Source of the DNA: Clostridia bacterium
GTDB lineage: Bacteria; Bacillota; Clostridia; Christensenellales; Aristaeellaceae
Assembly (NCBI GenBank): GCA_017396845.1
Contig: JAFQKQ010000018.1
Span: 1 to 55,279 of the forward strand
DNA: 55,279 bases
Direction of reading: 5' to 3'
How positions within the stretch are numbered: the stretch's first letter is position 1; each line of letters opens with the position of its first letter. The notes beneath the pieces are model-generated. The model made no database searches, had not been told where the DNA came from, and worked only from the letters and a program-made list of their open reading frames with translations. Both the position numbers and the translations under genes were made by a program. Below, in pieces: positions 26,123 to 47,367 of this stretch.

Positions 26123-27172
26123 ATGGCGATGAACTATGAGAATATTGCAAATCTTGTACTTGAACGATTGAAATTGCCCGATACGGAGGATGTCAGCAGC
26201 GGCCATCTTACAATGGATAATTGGGAATGGCCGACGGGCGTCGCGCTGTACGGCGTATGGAAAACATATAAAAAGACGGGCGATAAGAATATACTTGACT
26301 ATCTTGAAAGCTGGTATGCCCGCAGATTTACCATGGAAAAGCCACACAGAAACGTAAACACCGTAGCGCCGATGCTTGCGCTTACGTTTATGTACGAGGA
26401 GACGAAGAACGAGGAATATCTTCCGCACATACTCTCCTGGGCCGAATGGGTCATGAACGAAATGCCGAGAACGGAGCTTGGCGGCCTTCAGCACTGCACG
26501 GTCTGGAACCGTCACTACGAGCAGCTGTGGGACGATACGCTGTTTATGACGGTTTTGTTCCTTTTAAAGGCGGGTCTGGTGCTCGGCAATAAGGAATGGG
26601 TGGAGGAAGCCGGCTATCAGTTCCTGATTCATATCCGGTATCTTCAGGATAAGATCACGGGTCTTTGGTATCACGGCTGGACGTTTGACAGAAGGCACAA
26701 TTTTGCCGAAGCCTTCTGGGGCAGAGGAAACGCCTGGGCGGTAATGTCCTCGGTGGAATTTGTGGAGATGGTCGGAAGGGATTCGGCGGTTGCGCGCTAT
26801 GTGCTTGCATGTCTCAATGATCAGGTGCTCGCCCTGTGGAAGCTTCAGCGCGAAAACGGCATGTTTACAACGCTTCTGGATGTAGAAGAAACCTATCTTG
26901 AAACCAGCTGTACGGCGGGCATCGCCTGCGGCGTTTTGAAGGGCATTCGTCTTGGCTATATCGATGAGAAATACAGGGATATGGGCATGAAAGCCGCCGC
27001 CGCCGTCATCGAAAGAATTGCGGAGGACGGTACCGTGCAGGGTGTTTCCAATGGCACCGGCATGGGACACACGCTCGATTTCTACAAAAACATCTCGATC
27101 ACCCCCACCGCATACGGACAGGGCATCGCATTTCTGATGCTCACGGAGCTTTGCGAAGGGGAAGAAGGATGA
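26123..27172 (+). CDS. Glycoside hydrolase family 105 (unsaturated rhamnogalacturonyl hydrolase)
   Basis: This 349-residue (alpha/alpha)6-barrel protein removes unsaturated uronic acid residues from pectin fragments left by polysaccharide lyases. Family features are MDNWEWPTGVALYG (31-44), the WDDT motif (136-139) with the candidate catalytic Asp, FWGRGNAW (198-205), and a late TAYGQGIAFLML segment. There is no signal peptide, so it acts on imported oligosaccharides in the cytoplasm. Start by GGGAGGG 8 nt upstream. It overlaps the next small ORF by ATGA, and an AraC-type regulator follows. Confidence 0.88.
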   Translation: MAMNYENIANLVLERLKLPDTEDVSSGHLTMDNWEWPTGVALYGVWKTYKKTGDKNILDYLESWYARRFTMEKPHRNVNTVAPMLALTFMYEETKNEEYLPHILSWAEWVMNEMPRTELGGLQHCTVWNRHYEQLWDDTLFMTVLFLLKAGLVLGNKEWVEEAGYQFLIHIRYLQDKITGLWYHGWTFDRRHNFAEAFWGRGNAWAVMSSVEFVEMVGRDSAVARYVLACLNDQVLALWKLQRENGMFTTLLDVEETYLETSCTAGIACGVLKGIRLGYIDEKYRDMGMKAAAAVIERIAEDGTVQGVSNGTGMGHTLDFYKNISITPTAYGQGIAFLMLTELCEGEEG

Positions 27173-27543: not shown

Positions 27544-27605
27544 TGCTATTATGATATTATGGAAAAGTGTTTTCGAAATTTGCATCGGGATACGGGGGCG
27601 TATTG

Positions 27606-29831
27606 GTGAAGCATAGAATCCGGTATTATCTGAAAAGCACGTTTGTCAGGTACACGCTTTCATATATTCTGATATTGATGATATTGATTACGTGCATTGT
27701 GGCGTATATGTATATCCATTTTCACAAAACCATATACGAAAGCACGCAGGATGCGCAGACCAATAAGCTTGCAAGCGTCAGATATCAGAGCGAAAATCAT
27801 ATTCAGCTGATGATGGGAATTGCCGAACAGCTGGGGCTTTCGGTTGCGTCCGGGAATCCGGGGGAAGAAAACGCGAACGAGATCATGGCGGCGCTTGCGC
27901 CCTATGGCCTGTATTACGATTTCTGCGATCAGCTGTACGTACACTTCTACGGGGACGAATGGGTATACGGCGCGGATGTACGCGTGAAAAAGGAAACGTT
28001 CTTCTCCGAAACGGTGGCATACGAGACGACGTCGGAAAAAGATGTTCTTGAAAGAATCGAAAAAAAGGGCGAGACGAGCGTAATTGAAAGCCAGCTGGTG
28101 GTAAACAATCTTGTGAGCGCGGAAGAGAGAAATATGCTCACATATATACTCCCGCTTGGAATCGATAAAGCGAATGCGTCCGGCTGCGCCGTGTTCTTTA
28201 TTCCCGAGGAGCGCTACAAAAGGTTTATGGAGGACGAAATCGCAGACGGCGGCAATCGGTATATACTTTTTAACGGCGAAATCGTCGCCTCGGGCGAGAC
28301 CTTTTCGCTGGATGATGCGTATGTAAAGCAGGCGGCGAACGGCGCGGCGCAGACGGAAATATATGAAAAGCTGGTTGCGGGCAGAATGTACCTGTTTATC
28401 GCAATGCCCGGTGATATCGAGGGCTTTTCATTCTTTACCGCCATACCGCTTACCAGCATTTCGAAGACTGTGGCCAGCGGCTGGAGCGGCTTTGTTGTGA
28501 TTTTGCTTGCCTTCACGCTTCCGTGCCTGGGCTTTATGATACTGATTTCCCGCAGCAATTACCGGATGATCCGCGATATGAGCGCGCAGTTTGCAACCGA
28601 TGAGGATGCTTATGCCGACAATATCGACGTAATCAGAGAAGGCATTCATACGCTGGTCGGAAAAAACCGGGATCTTGACACGGAGCTTGAAAAGAGCCTG
28701 CCTGCAAGAAGAAATCAGTTTGTGAATCAGCTGGTAAAGGGAAGGTTTGAAAATAAGGAGGCGGCGACTGAAAAGGCGAAGGAGGTAGGGCTGGATATTG
28801 AAAAGGCCTTCTTTGAGATACTGCTTCTTGGATTGCCTAAGGATAATGTGGGCGTTTCCGCGGAAACGATTCTTGCCGCCGCGCCGGAGGGCGTTTCATG
28901 CGCGGGCACCGATCTTTTGGGCTACGACCAGCTTCTGATTGCGGCATTTTCCGACGACGATGAGAGTCTCAAAAAGTTCGCGCTTGACATCTCACGCCTT
29001 CCCGATATTGTAAGCTTCAGAATTCCTGTCGCCGTGAGCGGCATACATGAGGATTTCGGAGATATGCCCGCTGCCTGTCTGGAAGCGACGAGCGCTTATG
29101 ACGGGCGTTTTGTGGCGGGCGAAATGCGGCTTTTGAGCTTTTCGGAGGTTGGAAGCTCTACGCAAAGCCTCATTCCGCAGGCGAGAAACTACATCGAAGC
29201 CATCAAGCAGGCGATGTCGTTCGGAAACAGCGTGGATATGAATCAAAAGCTCGACGAACTTTTGATGTTTTTGAGAAATGCAAACTTGTCCATGGTTGCA
29301 TTCAGGCAGATTTATAACGAGGTCATCGCCGCGATTATCTCCATTGCCGGTTCGAGTGATCAGGAGGCAATCAAGTATTACGACCTGTTCACACTTTCCA
29401 ACTGCCGTTCGATCGACGAACTGGACGGGATTCTCAGGAAAGTGTGCGCCGGCATCATGGAAAACAGCCGTGAGAAGGATCATCAGCCGCTGATTCAGAA
29501 TATCCTTCAGTATATGGCGAAAATGTATACGGATCCGGGCTTTACGCTTTCACAGGTTGCGGAGGAATTTTCGCTCACAACCACCCGACTTTCCATCGAA
29601 TTCAAGGAAAATATGCGCATGACGCCGTCCGATTACCTGACTATGCTTAGAATGGAGCATTCGAAGAAGCTTCTGAAGGAGACGGATAAATCGATCAAGG
29701 ACATCTGTACGGAGGTCGGCTACTCGGATGTTTCCAGCTATATCCGCCGCTTTAAGCAGTACACCACGCAAACGCCGCTTCAGTTCAGGCAGACAATCAG
29801 AAGTGCGGAGGAAAAACAGAAGGATGGATAG
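27606..29831 (+). CDS. Membrane-bound AraC-family transcriptional regulator
   Basis: A protein of about 741 residues with helices near residues 15-37 and 290-315 around a roughly 250-residue extracellular sensor, then a cytoplasmic region and a C-terminal AraC DNA-binding domain (FTLSQVAEEFSLTTTRLSIEFKE, SIKDICTEVGYSDVSSYIRRFK). Clostridia and Bacillus use such proteins to sense extracellular sugars and activate nearby glycan-degrading genes. GTG at 27606 (GGGGG ribosome site 27594-27598) is preferred; TTG 27603 and GTG 27567 are in frame alternatives. Adjacent GH105 and GH127-like genes are plausible targets. Confidence 0.83.
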   Translation: MKHRIRYYLKSTFVRYTLSYILILMILITCIVAYMYIHFHKTIYESTQDAQTNKLASVRYQSENHIQLMMGIAEQLGLSVASGNPGEENANEIMAALAPYGLYYDFCDQLYVHFYGDEWVYGADVRVKKETFFSETVAYETTSEKDVLERIEKKGETSVIESQLVVNNLVSAEERNMLTYILPLGIDKANASGCAVFFIPEERYKRFMEDEIADGGNRYILFNGEIVASGETFSLDDAYVKQAANGAAQTEIYEKLVAGRMYLFIAMPGDIEGFSFFTAIPLTSISKTVASGWSGFVVILLAFTLPCLGFMILISRSNYRMIRDMSAQFATDEDAYADNIDVIREGIHTLVGKNRDLDTELEKSLPARRNQFVNQLVKGRFENKEAATEKAKEVGLDIEKAFFEILLLGLPKDNVGVSAETILAAAPEGVSCAGTDLLGYDQLLIAAFSDDDESLKKFALDISRLPDIVSFRIPVAVSGIHEDFGDMPAACLEATSAYDGRFVAGEMRLLSFSEVGSSTQSLIPQARNYIEAIKQAMSFGNSVDMNQKLDELLMFLRNANLSMVAFRQIYNEVIAAIISIAGSSDQEAIKYYDLFTLSNCRSIDELDGILRKVCAGIMENSREKDHQPLIQNILQYMAKMYTDPGFTLSQVAEEFSLTTTRLSIEFKENMRMTPSDYLTMLRMEHSKKLLKETDKSIKDICTEVGYSDVSSYIRRFKQYTTQTPLQFRQTIRSAEEKQKDG

Positions 29832-32119: not shown

Positions 32120-33973
32120 TTATGCGGTTTTTTCGGTCTGATTGAGCTCTTCCTCCAGCGCCGTCTGAATCATGTAGATTCTCCGGTACAGACCGTCTTC
32201 ATGGATCAGCTCGTCATGGGAACCATTCTGTGCCACGCGGCCGTTCTGCAGTACGATTATCACGTCGGCCTCCGCAAGTGTGGTCAGGCGGTGGGAGATG
32301 ATAAACGTGGTCGCGCAGGTTCCGCCTTCCTTTTTCTGCTCTTTGAGCGCTTCGCGGATGGCTTTATCGGTCTCCGTGTCCACGGCGGAGAGGGAGTCGT
32401 CGAAGATGAGAATATCGTTTTGCTTAAGCAGCGTTCTTGCAATCGCCACGCGCTGCTTCTGTCCGCCCGACAGCGTTACGCCTCTTTCGCCGACCAGCGT
32501 ATCGTAGCCGTTTTCAAAATCCTGTATAAAATCATGCGCGCAGGCGGTCCTGGCGGCGTCAAAGATCATTTCATCGGTGGGATTCTTTACGGCGATGCCG
32601 ATATTGTTTCTTACCGTTCTCGAATATAAAAACGGCTCCTGAAGAATGAGGCCGATGCGGCTCCTTAAGTGGGATTTCCTGATCTTTTTGATGTTCACGC
32701 CGCCGATTCTGATTTCGCCGCGCCCGTCTTCTACATCGTAAAGCCTTTGAAGCAGGTGCATAAGCGTGGATTTTCCCGTTCCCGTCGCGCCCAATACGGC
32801 AACTGTCTGACCGGCCTTTACGGTGAAGTCGATATCGATCAGAACAGGATTCATTCTCTCATATTCAAAGCCCACATGATCGAATACGATATCGCCCTCA
32901 ATCGGCGCGCAGACTGCGTCTTCATCGTCCTCTTCGCTCTTGGCTACCAAAATCTCGTCGATTCGGTCGAAGGCGACCAGGGATTTGCCCATATCGGACA
33001 GGATTCGTCCCATCTGTCGGATGGGCCAGAGCAGCATTGATATGTAGGTTACGAATTTGGTCATGTCGCCGATGGAGAGTATGTCGTTTGCACTGGCGGC
33101 CAGAAACACGCCGTAAACCAGCGTAACGCCCGTCTGCGCCATGCTCAGAAGGTCGCTTCCGGACCAGTATATCGCCAGGAGATTGCAAAGCCTTCTGCTC
33201 TTTTTCCAGAGATCGTCGTTGGCTTCGTTGAACTTGTCGATTTCAAACTGCTGCCTTCCGAATGCGCGCACCACGCGAACGCCCGTCAGGTTTTCCTGAA
33301 GTACGGCGCTCATCTTGCCTTCGGCTTCGTCGGACAGCTGGAAGCTCTTTCGAACCCATTTAAAAAACCACATGGCGAATACGAACAGAAACGGCACCAG
33401 TACCATGCTGACCAGCGTCATTTTCACGTTCATCTGAAGCATCAGTGTGAGCGCCACGATCAGCATGAGCACCGCGCGGAACACTTCAACCACCTGCGTC
33501 TGCAAAAAGCGGCGGATGGTTTCAACGTCGGATGTGCACCTTTGAATGAGGTCGCCGGTCTTGGCTTTCACATGATAATCGTAGGGGAGGGACTGAAGGT
33601 GTGTGTAGAGCCGATCCCGCATGTTTTTGGCGATTGCTTCCGATGCGGTGGCCGTCCAGCGGCTTCTGAAATACTGGAAGCAGCCGTTTAATACGTAGAG
33701 TGCGATGATGATCAGCGCCGCAATCCAAAGGTGACTCACTACGTAATCAAGTCCCCCGCGCTGATAGTAAAAGCGGTTCAGGAAAGCGGGGAAATTGAGC
33801 GGATCGTTGGTTCCCTTTGCCTTGCTTGTGAGCGCATCGGCAATTCCGCCGAGAACGCTTGGCGATATGAAGCCTACAACGCTCGTCACGCCCACGGCAG
33901 CCACGGCGCCGAAATAGCGCAGGCGGTTGCCCTTCATCATGTCGACTAAAAGTTTCAGCTTTCTGGATGCCAT
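32120..33973 (-). CDS. ABC exporter half-transporter, degenerate-site subunit (BmrC-like)
   Basis: A 617-residue partner of the preceding half-transporter. Six helices are followed by Walker A GATGTGKST, Q-loop LILQEPFLYSR, canonical signature LSGGQKQ, and Walker B ILIFDDSLSAVD, where Asp replaces the catalytic Glu. One canonical and one degenerate ATP site is the hallmark of heterodimeric exporters such as BmrCD and TM287/288, and gene order (degenerate subunit first) matches bmrC-bmrD. The start at 33973 is set by TTGGAGG 7 nt upstream; the 10 extra upstream codons lack a ribosome site. A leader peptide and terminator precede it. Confidence 0.88.
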   Translation of the reverse strand: MASRKLKLLVDMMKGNRLRYFGAVAAVGVTSVVGFISPSVLGGIADALTSKAKGTNDPLNFPAFLNRFYYQRGGLDYVVSHLWIAALIIIALYVLNGCFQYFRSRWTATASEAIAKNMRDRLYTHLQSLPYDYHVKAKTGDLIQRCTSDVETIRRFLQTQVVEVFRAVLMLIVALTLMLQMNVKMTLVSMVLVPFLFVFAMWFFKWVRKSFQLSDEAEGKMSAVLQENLTGVRVVRAFGRQQFEIDKFNEANDDLWKKSRRLCNLLAIYWSGSDLLSMAQTGVTLVYGVFLAASANDILSIGDMTKFVTYISMLLWPIRQMGRILSDMGKSLVAFDRIDEILVAKSEEDDEDAVCAPIEGDIVFDHVGFEYERMNPVLIDIDFTVKAGQTVAVLGATGTGKSTLMHLLQRLYDVEDGRGEIRIGGVNIKKIRKSHLRSRIGLILQEPFLYSRTVRNNIGIAVKNPTDEMIFDAARTACAHDFIQDFENGYDTLVGERGVTLSGGQKQRVAIARTLLKQNDILIFDDSLSAVDTETDKAIREALKEQKKEGGTCATTFIISHRLTTLAEADVIIVLQNGRVAQNGSHDELIHEDGLYRRIYMIQTALEEELNQTEKTA

Positions 33974-34001: not shown

Positions 34002-34033
34002 AAAAACGCCGGGTGAGTTTGACTCGCCCGGCG
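34002..34033 (-). terminator. Intrinsic terminator in the ABC operon leader (attenuator)
   Basis: On the minus strand a 12-bp stem (34033-34022 with 34018-34007, one C-A mismatch) and 3-nt loop are followed by five T residues (34006-34002). It lies between the leader peptide and the first ABC gene. Its 5' arm (34030-34022, CGGGCGAGT) can alternatively pair with GCTTGCCCG at 34088-34080 inside the leader ORF. Confidence 0.85.
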
Positions 34034-34064
34034 ATAAGCATAGACAGAAGATATTTTTATATAT

Positions 34065-34130
34065 CTATATCTTATTCTGCGGGCAAGCGGAATGATTATT
34101 TACGTCAGCAGTGCGGAATCTGTTGTTCAT
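34065..34130 (-). CDS. Leader peptide of the ABC exporter operon (21 aa)
   Basis: On the minus strand ATG at 34130 is followed by 21 sense codons (MNNRFRTADV... ending ...CPQNKI) and TAG at 34065. A strong ribosome site AAAGGGG (34144-34138) lies 7 nt upstream. The promoter is about 30 nt further upstream, so this is the first thing translated from the transcript. Codons 14-17 (GCT TGC CCG) overlap the antiterminator arm. By analogy with BmrB, ribosome stalling in this peptide would let the antiterminator form and switch on the exporter genes. The peptide itself needs no function. Confidence 0.75.
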   Translation of the reverse strand: MNNRFRTADVNNHSACPQNKI

Positions 34131-34167
34131 TTTCGCTTCCCCTTTCTTTCGATATTTTTCGAAATTC

Positions 34168-34196
34168 AGTATACTCCCGATTGGATAAAAATGCAA
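34168..34196 (-). promoter_or_regulatory. Promoter of the ABC exporter operon
   Basis: On the minus strand TTGCAT (34196-34191) and TATACT (34173-34168) are spaced by 17 nt. The predicted start near 34161 gives a leader of about 190 nt before the first exporter gene. Confidence 0.75.
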
Positions 34197-34300
34197 TATG
34201 CATCAGTGGAAGATTCATAAATTAACATATACTTTGTGCGCGAAAGCCGTTTACATCTGAGAAGCTGTATGCTACATTCTTCATGAGGAGGTCGATCGAA

Positions 34301-35968
34301 ATGAAATTCAGAGTTTCCAACCGTGTATCTCAGCCTATGAGCGGAGTATCTCTTACGGGCGGCGTTTTTCAGAGGATGTTTGAAAACAATATTGGCTTTT
34401 TGAAGGGCTTCGATCTTGACAGAATTCTCTATTGGTACCGCGTGCATAAGGGGAAAAAGTCGCCGGGCGTTCCGTATGCATTCGGGGACGGGCATTTTGA
34501 AAACAATTTGAAGGGTCAGACCGCAGGCGAATTTCTGATGGGCGCGTGTACGTCGCTTTTATGGAAGGAGGATAAAGCCCTTCGCGATATGGCAGACGCG
34601 ATCGTAGACGAAATTGCGCAGTGCAAAGATGACGACGGCTTTCTGATTCCAATCACAAGAGATGAATTCAAAACGCGCGAATACCCGAATTACACGCGCG
34701 CATGGATTACCTTTGGGCTCCTGGACGCGGGCTTCGCGGGAAACGAAAAGGCGTTTTCGCTGGCGCGCGGCATGAGCGACTGGTTCAACAGATCCGAAGT
34801 GCTTCCGTATGTGAAGGATATGAATCTGGGCTTTCAGGGAATACTCGCTTGTACCCGCGTATATACCTCTCCGATCGGGAAGAAAGAGGATATCGATACC
34901 GCGCTTATGTATTATAAGGAAGACTGGTGGCTTGACCAGCTGATCAAAGGCGATCACAGGGCGATTTACGAGCATCCGGGCAATCATCCGCATTCAACGC
35001 TTTTAACGACGCTGGAAGGCTATCATGACATCTTCAGAGCTACGGGCGATCCGAAATATCTGACCGCCGTAAAGAGCGCGCTTCATATGTATGAGGACAA
35101 GTGGCAGCATGTGGGCGGCGGAATCTCCATGTGTGAAAACGATCGGTATTTCCCCGGCTGCAATTGGCTGAGCCCCAATCACAACTATAATGAACTGTGT
35201 TCCACCAATTTCTGGGTGCTTCTCAATCAAAGAATGCATCTGCTTGAACCGGATAACGCGCATTACATGGATGAAATCGAATCCTCCCTTTATAACGTGC
35301 TTCTGGCTTCGCAGGTTTCCGACCGGGGATATCATTATCTCAATTTCCTTGAGAAGCACAAGGATATGCGCTGGCTCGACCGTGCGACCTGCTGCGCCTC
35401 TCTGGGTACGCGGCTTGCGGGACTGCTTCCGCAGTTTCTGTATTCATATGCGGAGGATGAAGTATACATCAACCTCTACGCCCAAAGCGAAGCCGCGCTT
35501 GAAAACGGCGTAAAGCTTTCGGTGCATACGGATATGCCCGAAAACGGGCGCGTGCTGGTAAAAATCCATAACTGCGATCGGCCCTTTACCCTCTATCTGC
35601 GCCATCCGCGCTGGGCGTGTGAGGATGGGAAATCCTTCTATATAAAAAAAGAAAACGTACGCGCGGGCGACATTTTCGAAATGGAATTTCCGTTCATAAT
35701 GAAGGGAGTAAAATATACGGGCGCGGAGCAGATCTACGGGAAGGAGCGCTGGGCGCTTATGAGAGGGCCGATGCTGTTTGCATGCATGGGCGCACCCGCG
35801 CCGCTCACGGTAACGTGGGATCCCGAAAACCCCGAAATGTGGTTTGAGCCCGTAAAGGGAAAATGGGACAGGCTTTCGCTTCGGGGAGATGAGATGCACG
35901 AATACCGCGCGTATGCGTCGATTGAGGACGAGCCGTTCAGCGTTTATCCTGTCCTCTTGCGGCCGTAG
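34301..35968 (+). CDS. GH127-like glycosidase (DUF1680, beta-L-arabinofuranosidase type)
   Basis: A 555-residue cytoplasmic protein with the (alpha/alpha)6 barrel and C-terminal beta domain of GH127. The zinc/nucleophile set known from HypBA1 appears present: ELC (Glu and Cys ligands) in NYNELCSTNF and the Cys-Cys pair in RATCCASLGTRL, where the first Cys would be the nucleophile. FLYSYAEDEVYINLYAQSEA follows, a family signature. The acid/base Glu is not certain: CEN sits 19 rather than 16 residues before the ELC Glu. Start 34301 follows GAGGAGG at 9 nt; an upstream ATG at 34283 lies in that site. The 3' end overlaps the next gene, on the opposite strand, by 32 bases. Confidence 0.8.
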   Translation: MKFRVSNRVSQPMSGVSLTGGVFQRMFENNIGFLKGFDLDRILYWYRVHKGKKSPGVPYAFGDGHFENNLKGQTAGEFLMGACTSLLWKEDKALRDMADAIVDEIAQCKDDDGFLIPITRDEFKTREYPNYTRAWITFGLLDAGFAGNEKAFSLARGMSDWFNRSEVLPYVKDMNLGFQGILACTRVYTSPIGKKEDIDTALMYYKEDWWLDQLIKGDHRAIYEHPGNHPHSTLLTTLEGYHDIFRATGDPKYLTAVKSALHMYEDKWQHVGGGISMCENDRYFPGCNWLSPNHNYNELCSTNFWVLLNQRMHLLEPDNAHYMDEIESSLYNVLLASQVSDRGYHYLNFLEKHKDMRWLDRATCCASLGTRLAGLLPQFLYSYAEDEVYINLYAQSEAALENGVKLSVHTDMPENGRVLVKIHNCDRPFTLYLRHPRWACEDGKSFYIKKENVRAGDIFEMEFPFIMKGVKYTGAEQIYGKERWALMRGPMLFACMGAPAPLTVTWDPENPEMWFEPVKGKWDRLSLRGDEMHEYRAYASIEDEPFSVYPVLLRP

Positions 35969-47288: not shown

Positions 47289-47362
47289 GTGCCTGTAGCT
47301 CAGCCGGATAGAGTGTTTGGCTACGAACCAAAAGGTCAGGGGTTCGAATCCCTTCAGGCACG
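47289..47362 (+). tRNA. tRNA-Arg (anticodon ACG)
   Basis: A complete cloverleaf: acceptor stem GTGCCTG (47289-47295) with CAGGCAC (47355-47361), D loop with AGCTCAGCCGGATAGAG, anticodon stem TTTGG/CCAAA around CTACGAA (anticodon ACG, reads CGU/C/A after inosine modification), T arm GGGTTCGAATCCC. The discriminator base is G at 47362 and CCA is not encoded. A terminator follows within 10 bases. Confidence 0.95.
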
Positions 47363-47367
47363 CTGAA

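Follow-up and report, generated by a model that had tools for sequence, protein, structure and literature searches.

The question raised by this locus is how the expression of two adjacent ABC exporter genes may be set by the short leader in front of them. The genes lie on the minus strand of a 55,279-nucleotide contig of a Clostridia bacterium of the family Aristaeellaceae (GCA_017396845.1, JAFQKQ010000018.1), the whole of which we call the window, and an earlier note, made from the letters alone, had read the leader (34196-34002) as a leader-peptide attenuator. This reading survived a comparison with related genomes, in which its refutation was sought in a missing short ORF or missing paired arms: a short ORF, a strong ribosome site, a terminator, and two helices with locus-specific partners recur before homologous exporters. 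We consider it highly probable that the element is a ribosome-mediated transcription attenuator, and our best reading is that it senses slow translation whatever the peptide, in the manner of bmrB-bmrCD and vmlR.

A short leader ORF precedes an ABC exporter pair

The elements of the leader and the genes behind it are collected in Table 1. Direct reading of the sequence gave a promoter with the 17-nt spacer described in the earlier note, whose -10 element TATACT (34173-34168) holds up with a 5/6 consensus match, but whose -35 element TTGCAT (34196-34191) is weak, matching at 3/6 positions. The promoter was absent from a simple consensus scan, the -35 element being under the scan threshold, and in the best-match scan that we used for the relatives it scored 8/12, there with an 18-nt spacer. 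The ORF and its ribosome site were confirmed as they had been described; codons 4 to 6 of the ORF read R-F-R. The terminator had been given as a 12-bp hairpin with five T, and its place and TTTTT tract stood, but the stem has 11 pairs over 12 positions with a single C-A mismatch, around a 3-nt loop. This hairpin (-19.3 kcal/mol) begins 31 nt past the leader stop codon and was not listed by a simple terminator scan of the window. Since simple consensus scans missed both the promoter and the terminator, the elements are unremarkable singly, and the case rests on their fit to each other and on the relatives.

Table 1. Positions of the leader elements, the pairing segments, and the exporter genes in the window
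Feature	Position	Strand	Basis
Leader promoter	34168..34196	-	direct sequence reading
Ribosome site (Shine-Dalgarno, SD), AAAGGGG	34145-34139	-	sequence reading
Leader ORF, 21 codons, MNNRFRTADVNNHSACPQNKI followed by stop	34065..34130	-	sequence reading
Segment 1: SD, spacer, start codon; anti-antiterminator 5' arm	34127..34142	-	MFE fold
Segment 2: leader codons 12-17	34080..34095	-	fold, pair count
Segment 3: terminator 5' arm and loop	34019..34033	-	pair count
Intrinsic terminator: 34033-34007 plus TTTTT 34006-34002	34002..34033	-	sequence, pair count
Exporter subunit A, 617 aa, ABC exporter half	32120..33973	-	ORF, motifs
Exporter subunit B, 613 aa	30263..32104	-	ORF, motifs

NCBIfam held no family for the leader peptide, and the leader had no match in Rfam at gathering score, where the sole match in the window was a tRNA elsewhere. 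ARAGORN found a single tRNA in the window, tRNA-Arg (anticodon ACG) at 47289-47363 (+). When the 21-aa peptide was compared with 150 related genomes, only the peptide itself was found with any confidence; the other matches, seven at E 0.05 or worse, fell in frames of 78 to 272 aa.

The two downstream genes show the degenerate-site asymmetry that had been noted before. Subunit A has an Asp after Walker B (ILIFDDS) in place of the catalytic Glu, together with the signature LSGGQ, and subunit B has an intact catalytic Glu (IFVLDEA) with the signature LSTGQ. Among the best 60 of 159 solved chains for subunit A, the top rows were animal P-glycoproteins, and the bacterial chains included Sav1866, TM_0288, and BmrC/YheI; among the best 60 of 181 for subunit B, P-glycoproteins were again in the top rows, and the bacterial chains included 6raf chain A, which we take to be TmrA, TM_0288, and BmrD/YheH. 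These motifs and matches point to an ABC exporter pair with one degenerate ATP site, and the two subunits probably form a heterodimer. A close homologue of subunit B directly followed that of subunit A in 29 of the 30 loci L021 to L050, the contig ending at the remaining one (L031).

On the other side of the leader promoter lies a divergent gene, 34283-35968 (+), which matched the NCBIfam model for aceric acid hydrolase only weakly (64 bits, against a cut-off of 950); its product may be related to glycoside hydrolases, with an unclear substrate. Farther off, the ORF at 27567-29831 (+), 754 aa, presumably resembles a membrane-bound AraC-type regulator, and the ORF adjoining it (26123-27172) is, we assume, glycoside-hydrolase-like.

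Three leader segments are predicted to form mutually exclusive helices

The minimum free energy fold of the leader contained the terminator, i.e., helix 3:4, plus a helix 1:2 that joins 34142-34127 with 34095-34081 (-15.7 kcal/mol as a duplex; core on segment 2, 34089-34081). This third arm, a pairing of the SD and the start codon with segment 2, had been missed by the earlier note. It places the leader ORF across the anti-antiterminator hairpin, with the SD and start codon paired to the ORF's own end. The helix that had been proposed before, 2:3, was found in full: GCTTGCCCG (34088-34080) pairs with CGGGCGAGT (34030-34022) at 9/9 positions, two of them G-U, and is exclusive with termination, because the antiterminator and the terminator have segment 3 as a common 5' arm. 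On the ORF side it occupies codons 15 to 17 (Ala-Cys-Pro), however, not codons 14 to 17 as had been stated. Because the stretch that pairs with the SD and start codon (34095-34081) contains most of the antiterminator segment, segment 2 has two partners, and the leader appears to be a 1:2 / 2:3 / 3:4 attenuator made of an anti-antiterminator, an antiterminator, and a terminator.

The leader transcript folded at -52.2 kcal/mol (z = -4.8), a value reached by none of 200 shuffles. When the middle segment was shuffled with the SD and terminator sides fixed, helix 1:2 was equalled in 16 of 5,000 shuffles and helix 2:3 (arm and loop) in 59 of 5,000, and none of the 5,000 equalled both.

We folded the nascent RNA, ending at 34019, under constraints that place a ribosome on the leader. 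All 9 bp of helix 2:3 formed with the P site at codons 1, 2, 3, 5, 7, and 9; at codon 11, 5 bp were left, and at codons 13, 15, 18, and 21 there were no 2:3 pairs. The folding check suggested in the earlier note thus came out in two parts: the antiterminator forms in nascent folds with an early ribosome, but the full leader at equilibrium preferred the terminator at every ribosome position tested. Since the terminator is favoured at equilibrium, the switch must be kinetic, and kinetic control is how classical attenuators work.

A leader of the same design recurs before homologous exporters in the window's order

Homologues of subunit A at E 1e-130 or better were present in 111 of 200 related genomes, with 112 matches, of which we examined 90, the remaining 22 being all weak. 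Together with 11 loci from named contigs these made 101 upstream regions, 98 of them with at least 200 nt. Leaders were selected on the SD and an ORF of 10 to 50 codons, and a hairpin was sought after the stop. Six loci were excluded by eye after their poor pairings had been seen (L078, L085, L087, L099, L102, L106), and L058 was dropped because it lies on the same contig as L002. The resulting set of 54 leaders included L002, L004, and L005 from the named contigs, and in 51 of them a terminator lay 9 to 51 nt past the leader stop; nearly all of these 51 came from the window's order. Without the exclusions by eye and with corrected gene starts, 58 leaders were selected, 53 with a terminator. 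L002 (Christensenella sp. UBA4379) and a contig of the window's own family (C64 of G007) share one and the same leader.

A typical leader (e.g., L040 and L047) reads GAAAGGAGGCCGCA...ATG, with an ORF ending in TGCGGCCGCC and a terminator 5' arm and loop with CGGCTGCA. Upstream of the SD, the highest-scoring promoter match averaged 10.1/12 over the 54 leaders, against 7.15 in shuffled sequence, and was at least 9/12 in 46 of them, so that most relatives have a much better promoter than the window's in the same place. In the 51 terminator-bearing leaders the ORF measured 18 to 46 codons.

The leader peptides, on the other hand, had hardly any residues in common, not even among leaders of a single genus (L045, L046, and L052), except for those imposed by segment 2. 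Of the codons that differ within two close pairs of leaders, 6 change the amino acid and 1 is silent in one pair, 7 and 2 in the other; these ratios do not point to a conserved peptide, the numbers being too small for a rate. What is conserved across the relatives is the RNA pairing and the open frame, not the peptide sequence.

In the SD frame the first in-frame stop fell 8 to 60 nt before the hairpin in 51/51 leaders, against 0/51 and 10/51 for the other two frames, a figure that partly reflects the selection for a 10- to 50-codon ORF with the hairpin sought after its stop. The tightness of the spacing does not: the middle half of the stop-to-hairpin distances spans 24.5 to 32 nt. Median distances are about 13 nt from segment 2 to the stop codon and about 29 nt from there to the hairpin, so that a ribosome at the end of the ORF would sit over much of segment 2 and leave the terminator clear.

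This frame bias bears on the reading in which a ligand or protein binds the RNA and the short ORF has no part in the control. A set of three alternative helices could respond to a ligand just as to a ribosome, and the patAB exporter attenuator is described without a leader peptide in the excerpted text of PMC4319486, whose main text does not contain the term. However, only the SD frame stays open to a stop near the hairpin, no RNA sequence beyond the SD and its partners was seen to be conserved across the relatives, and Rfam, searched on the window, gave the leader no match at the gathering score. We regard a ligand- or protein-bound element as quite improbable.

Segment 2 pairs with the partners of its own locus

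If the helices matter, a segment should pair better with the partners of its own locus than with those of others. We fixed the regions as the SD to the start codon, the last 48 nt of the ORF, and the inner terminator 5' arm plus loop, and permuted the partners among the 51 leaders. Own partners gave a mean of -19.55 kcal/mol for 1:2, against -14.50 ± 0.37 in permutations, and of -16.90 against -14.48 ± 0.38 for 2:3, neither being reached in 20,000 permutations. The 53 leaders kept without exclusions by eye gave -19.24 against -14.21 ± 0.35 and -16.76 against -14.37 ± 0.37, respectively, again with 0/20,000. Segments 1 and 3 share segment 2 as a partner and should therefore resemble each other; their own-locus similarity was equalled in 26 of 20,000 permutations. 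Reversing segment 2 abolished the 1:2 effect (1,259/5,000) and nearly abolished the 2:3 effect, leaving a small drift (314/5,000; 550/20,000 in the rerun with 53 leaders). Permutation keeps the shared ancestry in the data, but common descent by itself would not produce complementarity between partners that have diverged.

Evidence for helix 2:3 is weaker than that for 1:2, as the leaders that reached the 5% level against plain shuffles of their own locus numbered 40/54 for 1:2 and 14/51 for 2:3. The SD/start region had at least 5 pairs with the ORF end in 50/51 leaders, and positions +2 to +9 after the SD core were paired in 39 to 52 of 52 to 54 leaders while each held at least 3 kinds of base and several pair types occurred. 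With a ribosome at codon 2, nascent 2:3 formed in 44/51 leaders; at equilibrium it survived in 11/51, and 40/51 preferred the terminator. With the ribosome at the stop codon, the terminator 3:4 formed in 50/51.

The design extends to other orders of Clostridia

We found the exporter, at 1e-150, in 55 of 291 genomes of the class Clostridia, the window's own included. The loci from outside the window's order numbered 29, and 26 of them had enough upstream sequence. A rule of SD, ORF, and terminator with no pairing criterion, fixed after one earlier look at the loci that had included pairing, was passed by 14 of these 26 regions and not by the other 12. In the 14 leaders own partners gave -15.55 against -11.65 ± 0.86 kcal/mol for 1:2 and -17.58 against -12.13 ± 0.86 for 2:3, each with 0/20,000 permutations, and the reversed control gave 4,946/20,000. 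These leaders are AT-richer, many of them reading GGAGGTCGTG..., yet are paired locus-specifically, which means that the design was kept while its letters changed.

These two sets bear on a further reading of the element, plain insulation by a constitutive terminator that dampens the exporter, the other pairings having no regulatory role. It would agree with the terminator winning in the window at equilibrium wherever the ribosome was placed, but it gives no use to helices 1:2 and 2:3, whose locus-specific pairing is conserved in both sets, and we consider it very improbable.

Within the related genomes, automatic leader calls followed the identity of the homologue to the window's subunit A. 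Over 87 homologues, 3 of the 90 loci having too little upstream sequence, a leader was called for 11/14 at 60% identity or more and for 29/32 at 53 to 59% (40/46 at 53% or more together), for 10/21 at 48 to 52%, or 12 with two recovered, and for 2/20 below 48%; this last group probably consists of paralogues. Among the 35 homologues without an automatic call, L091 and L109 were missed through a wrong gene start, the calls having used a start too far downstream where the match begins deep in the protein, and had leaders at normal distance once corrected. As diverged leaders, L038 (0/500 shuffles) and L082 (2/500) were supported, and L028 (39/500) is doubtful.

Two genomes of the window's own genus (G001 and G002) had a best scored subunit A match of only 44% identity, and genomes of other genera in the same family (G053 and G046) had a homologue at 71%. 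The distribution of the operon looks patchy, whether by loss, transfer, or incomplete assembly. Because the same-genus genomes showed no close exporter homologue, the element could not be traced among the nearest relatives.

A DNA pattern built on the consensus SD and start codon matched in 33 of 120 genomes, against 9 of 120 for its reversed control. At 30 matched loci examined, 11 had an open ORF of less than 60 codons, and 10 of these were already-known exporter leaders. The eleventh (L137) has no terminator or exporter behind it and looks like a chance match. Since the pattern is blind to leaders with divergent SDs, the window's own for example, and 30 matched loci were examined, dedication of the element to the exporter is unproven.

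Ribosome speed rather than a particular peptide may be sensed

If the ORF is translated, its codons could matter in two ways. In an amino-acid attenuator, a scarce charged tRNA, e.g., for Cys or Arg, would stall the ribosome at leader codons and turn the exporter on. Cys is indeed more frequent inside segment 2 than outside it (5.7% against 2.7%), as is Arg (13.2% against 9.3%), and the window's Cys codon lies within segment 2. However, this excess follows from the pairing of segment 2 with GGCCGC-like SD flanks, and a ribosome stalled within segment 2 would cover it and favour termination. Composition and inspection of the 54 leaders gave no amino-acid run or conserved codon, and the regulated genes are those of an exporter rather than of an enzyme of biosynthesis. 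We give this reading hardly any probability.

An arrest peptide specific to macrolides or ketolides, sensed through an early Arg/Lys-X-Arg/Lys as in erm-type leaders, has somewhat more in its favour. That motif is given for ketolides (PMC8298421), and R-F-R of the window's leader lies among the codons at which a stall would free segment 2. We compared 67 leaders with their shuffles, using 13 of the 14 from other orders and omitting L143 as a near-copy of L142. The motif occurred in codons 2 to 10 of 20/67 leaders, against 12.0 expected (5/3,000), and basic residues were in excess at spacing one, not at spacings zero, two, or three. The test was post hoc, however, and not significant in the 54-leader set alone (191/3,000); codons 11 to 20 had a similar tendency (11/67 against 6.5; 78/3,000), so that it is not special to early codons. 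Moreover, 47/67 leaders are without the early motif, and the free variation of peptides even within a genus fits poorly with a specific arrest. We therefore judge an arrest peptide unlikely and prefer the sensor of slow translation.

A model for ribosome-mediated attenuation of the exporter

Computation gave the parts, their pairings, the locus-specific conservation of these pairings, and the conserved ORF geometry; we infer the transcription start, translation of the leader, and a kinetic commitment to 2:3. RNA polymerase would start about 15 nt upstream of the strong ribosome site, and the first ribosome would load on the nascent leader. With no ribosome loaded, helix 1:2 would tie segment 2 to the SD and start codon, the terminator 3:4 would form, and the exporter would be off; by this lock, failure of initiation would also lead to termination. 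A ribosome of normal speed would reach segment 2 and the stop codon and cover segment 2 as the terminator forms, which would again leave the exporter off. A ribosome held in about the first nine codons, in contrast, would occupy or strain segment 1 and leave segment 2 free to capture the emerging terminator 5' arm (2:3), so that transcription would read through into both exporter genes. The position and speed of the ribosome would matter in this scheme, and the peptide sequence not much. Induction by ribosome-targeting antibiotics is suggested by the likeness to bmrB, vmlR, and cplR and by the exporter itself, and the pump may export drugs of this kind.

We see an even chance that the element is, in a wider sense, an attenuator spread over the class Clostridia and reserved, within the range of our searches, for a single clade of heterodimeric exporters. 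Evolution would then keep nothing but its geometry: the end of the ORF locks the ribosome site of that ORF, the peptide is free to vary, and the terminator follows the stop at roughly one ribosome length. Such a leader would act as a band-pass gate, off without initiation, off with fast elongation, and on only with a ribosome that has started and is slow.

Comparison with known attenuators

The closest likeness in terms of genes is bmrB-bmrCD of B. subtilis (PMC4191407), where a short leader ORF also precedes a two-gene heterodimeric exporter and induction, there by 50S-targeting antibiotics, requires translation of the leader; its authors call it the first report of ribosome-mediated attenuation of a multidrug ABC exporter. 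The claim that the leader mirrors it held as regards the logic; the anatomy differs. The structures of bmrB lie inside its 53-aa ORF (nucleotides 60 to 162), and what its anti-anti-terminator does is called unclear (PMC4191407). Here the terminator comes after the stop codon, and the anti-antiterminator is a pairing of the SD and start codon with the ORF end that is kept across diverged sequences.

The arrangement of the helices resembles that of vmlR of B. subtilis (PMC9226507), which has its uORF in an anti-antiterminator hairpin and an intrinsic terminator as the default, and in which a stalled ribosome frees the antiterminator, as in our model. However, the vmlR uORF has three residues (MIN) and precedes an ABC-F resistance gene (PMC9226507), whereas the leader here has 21 residues (18 to 46 in relatives) and precedes an exporter. 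A clostridial case is cplR of Clostridioides difficile (PMC10201436), likewise a uORF attenuator, in which a 5' hairpin covers the uORF and a terminator follows; it differs in its uORF, MR[I/M] with a conserved consensus, in its ABC-F gene, and in a terminator stem that also hides the main SD.

For patAB of Streptococcus pneumoniae, an exporter attenuator too, the excerpted account (PMC4319486) leaves the inducing signal open. The ABC-leaders of Naville and Gautheret (2010; PMC2965389) are predicted attenuators before ABC transporters, one of them before a multidrug export operon in lactobacilli; they were read as possible riboswitches or protein-bound elements, and their description there states no leader ORF. 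In the uORF motifs of PMC8632094 we found no ABC transporter case, the term being absent from its main text, and titles and abstracts of the open-licence literature held no recognisable description of this Clostridia leader, which is weak evidence of absence. We file the element as a variant of ribosome-mediated attenuation that works like bmrB and vmlR and differs from both in anatomy.

The dozens of diverged leaders amount to a natural mutagenesis in which the contacts were kept and the peptide was not. Whether such leaders report a particular drug and codon or merely a slow ribosome is a general question that leader swaps make directly testable, and if the band-pass reading is true, elongation-blocking drugs in general would be reported and a block of initiation would be ignored. 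The finding suggests that drug-inducible exporters are present in many little-studied Clostridia and would escape searches that rely on conserved leader peptides.
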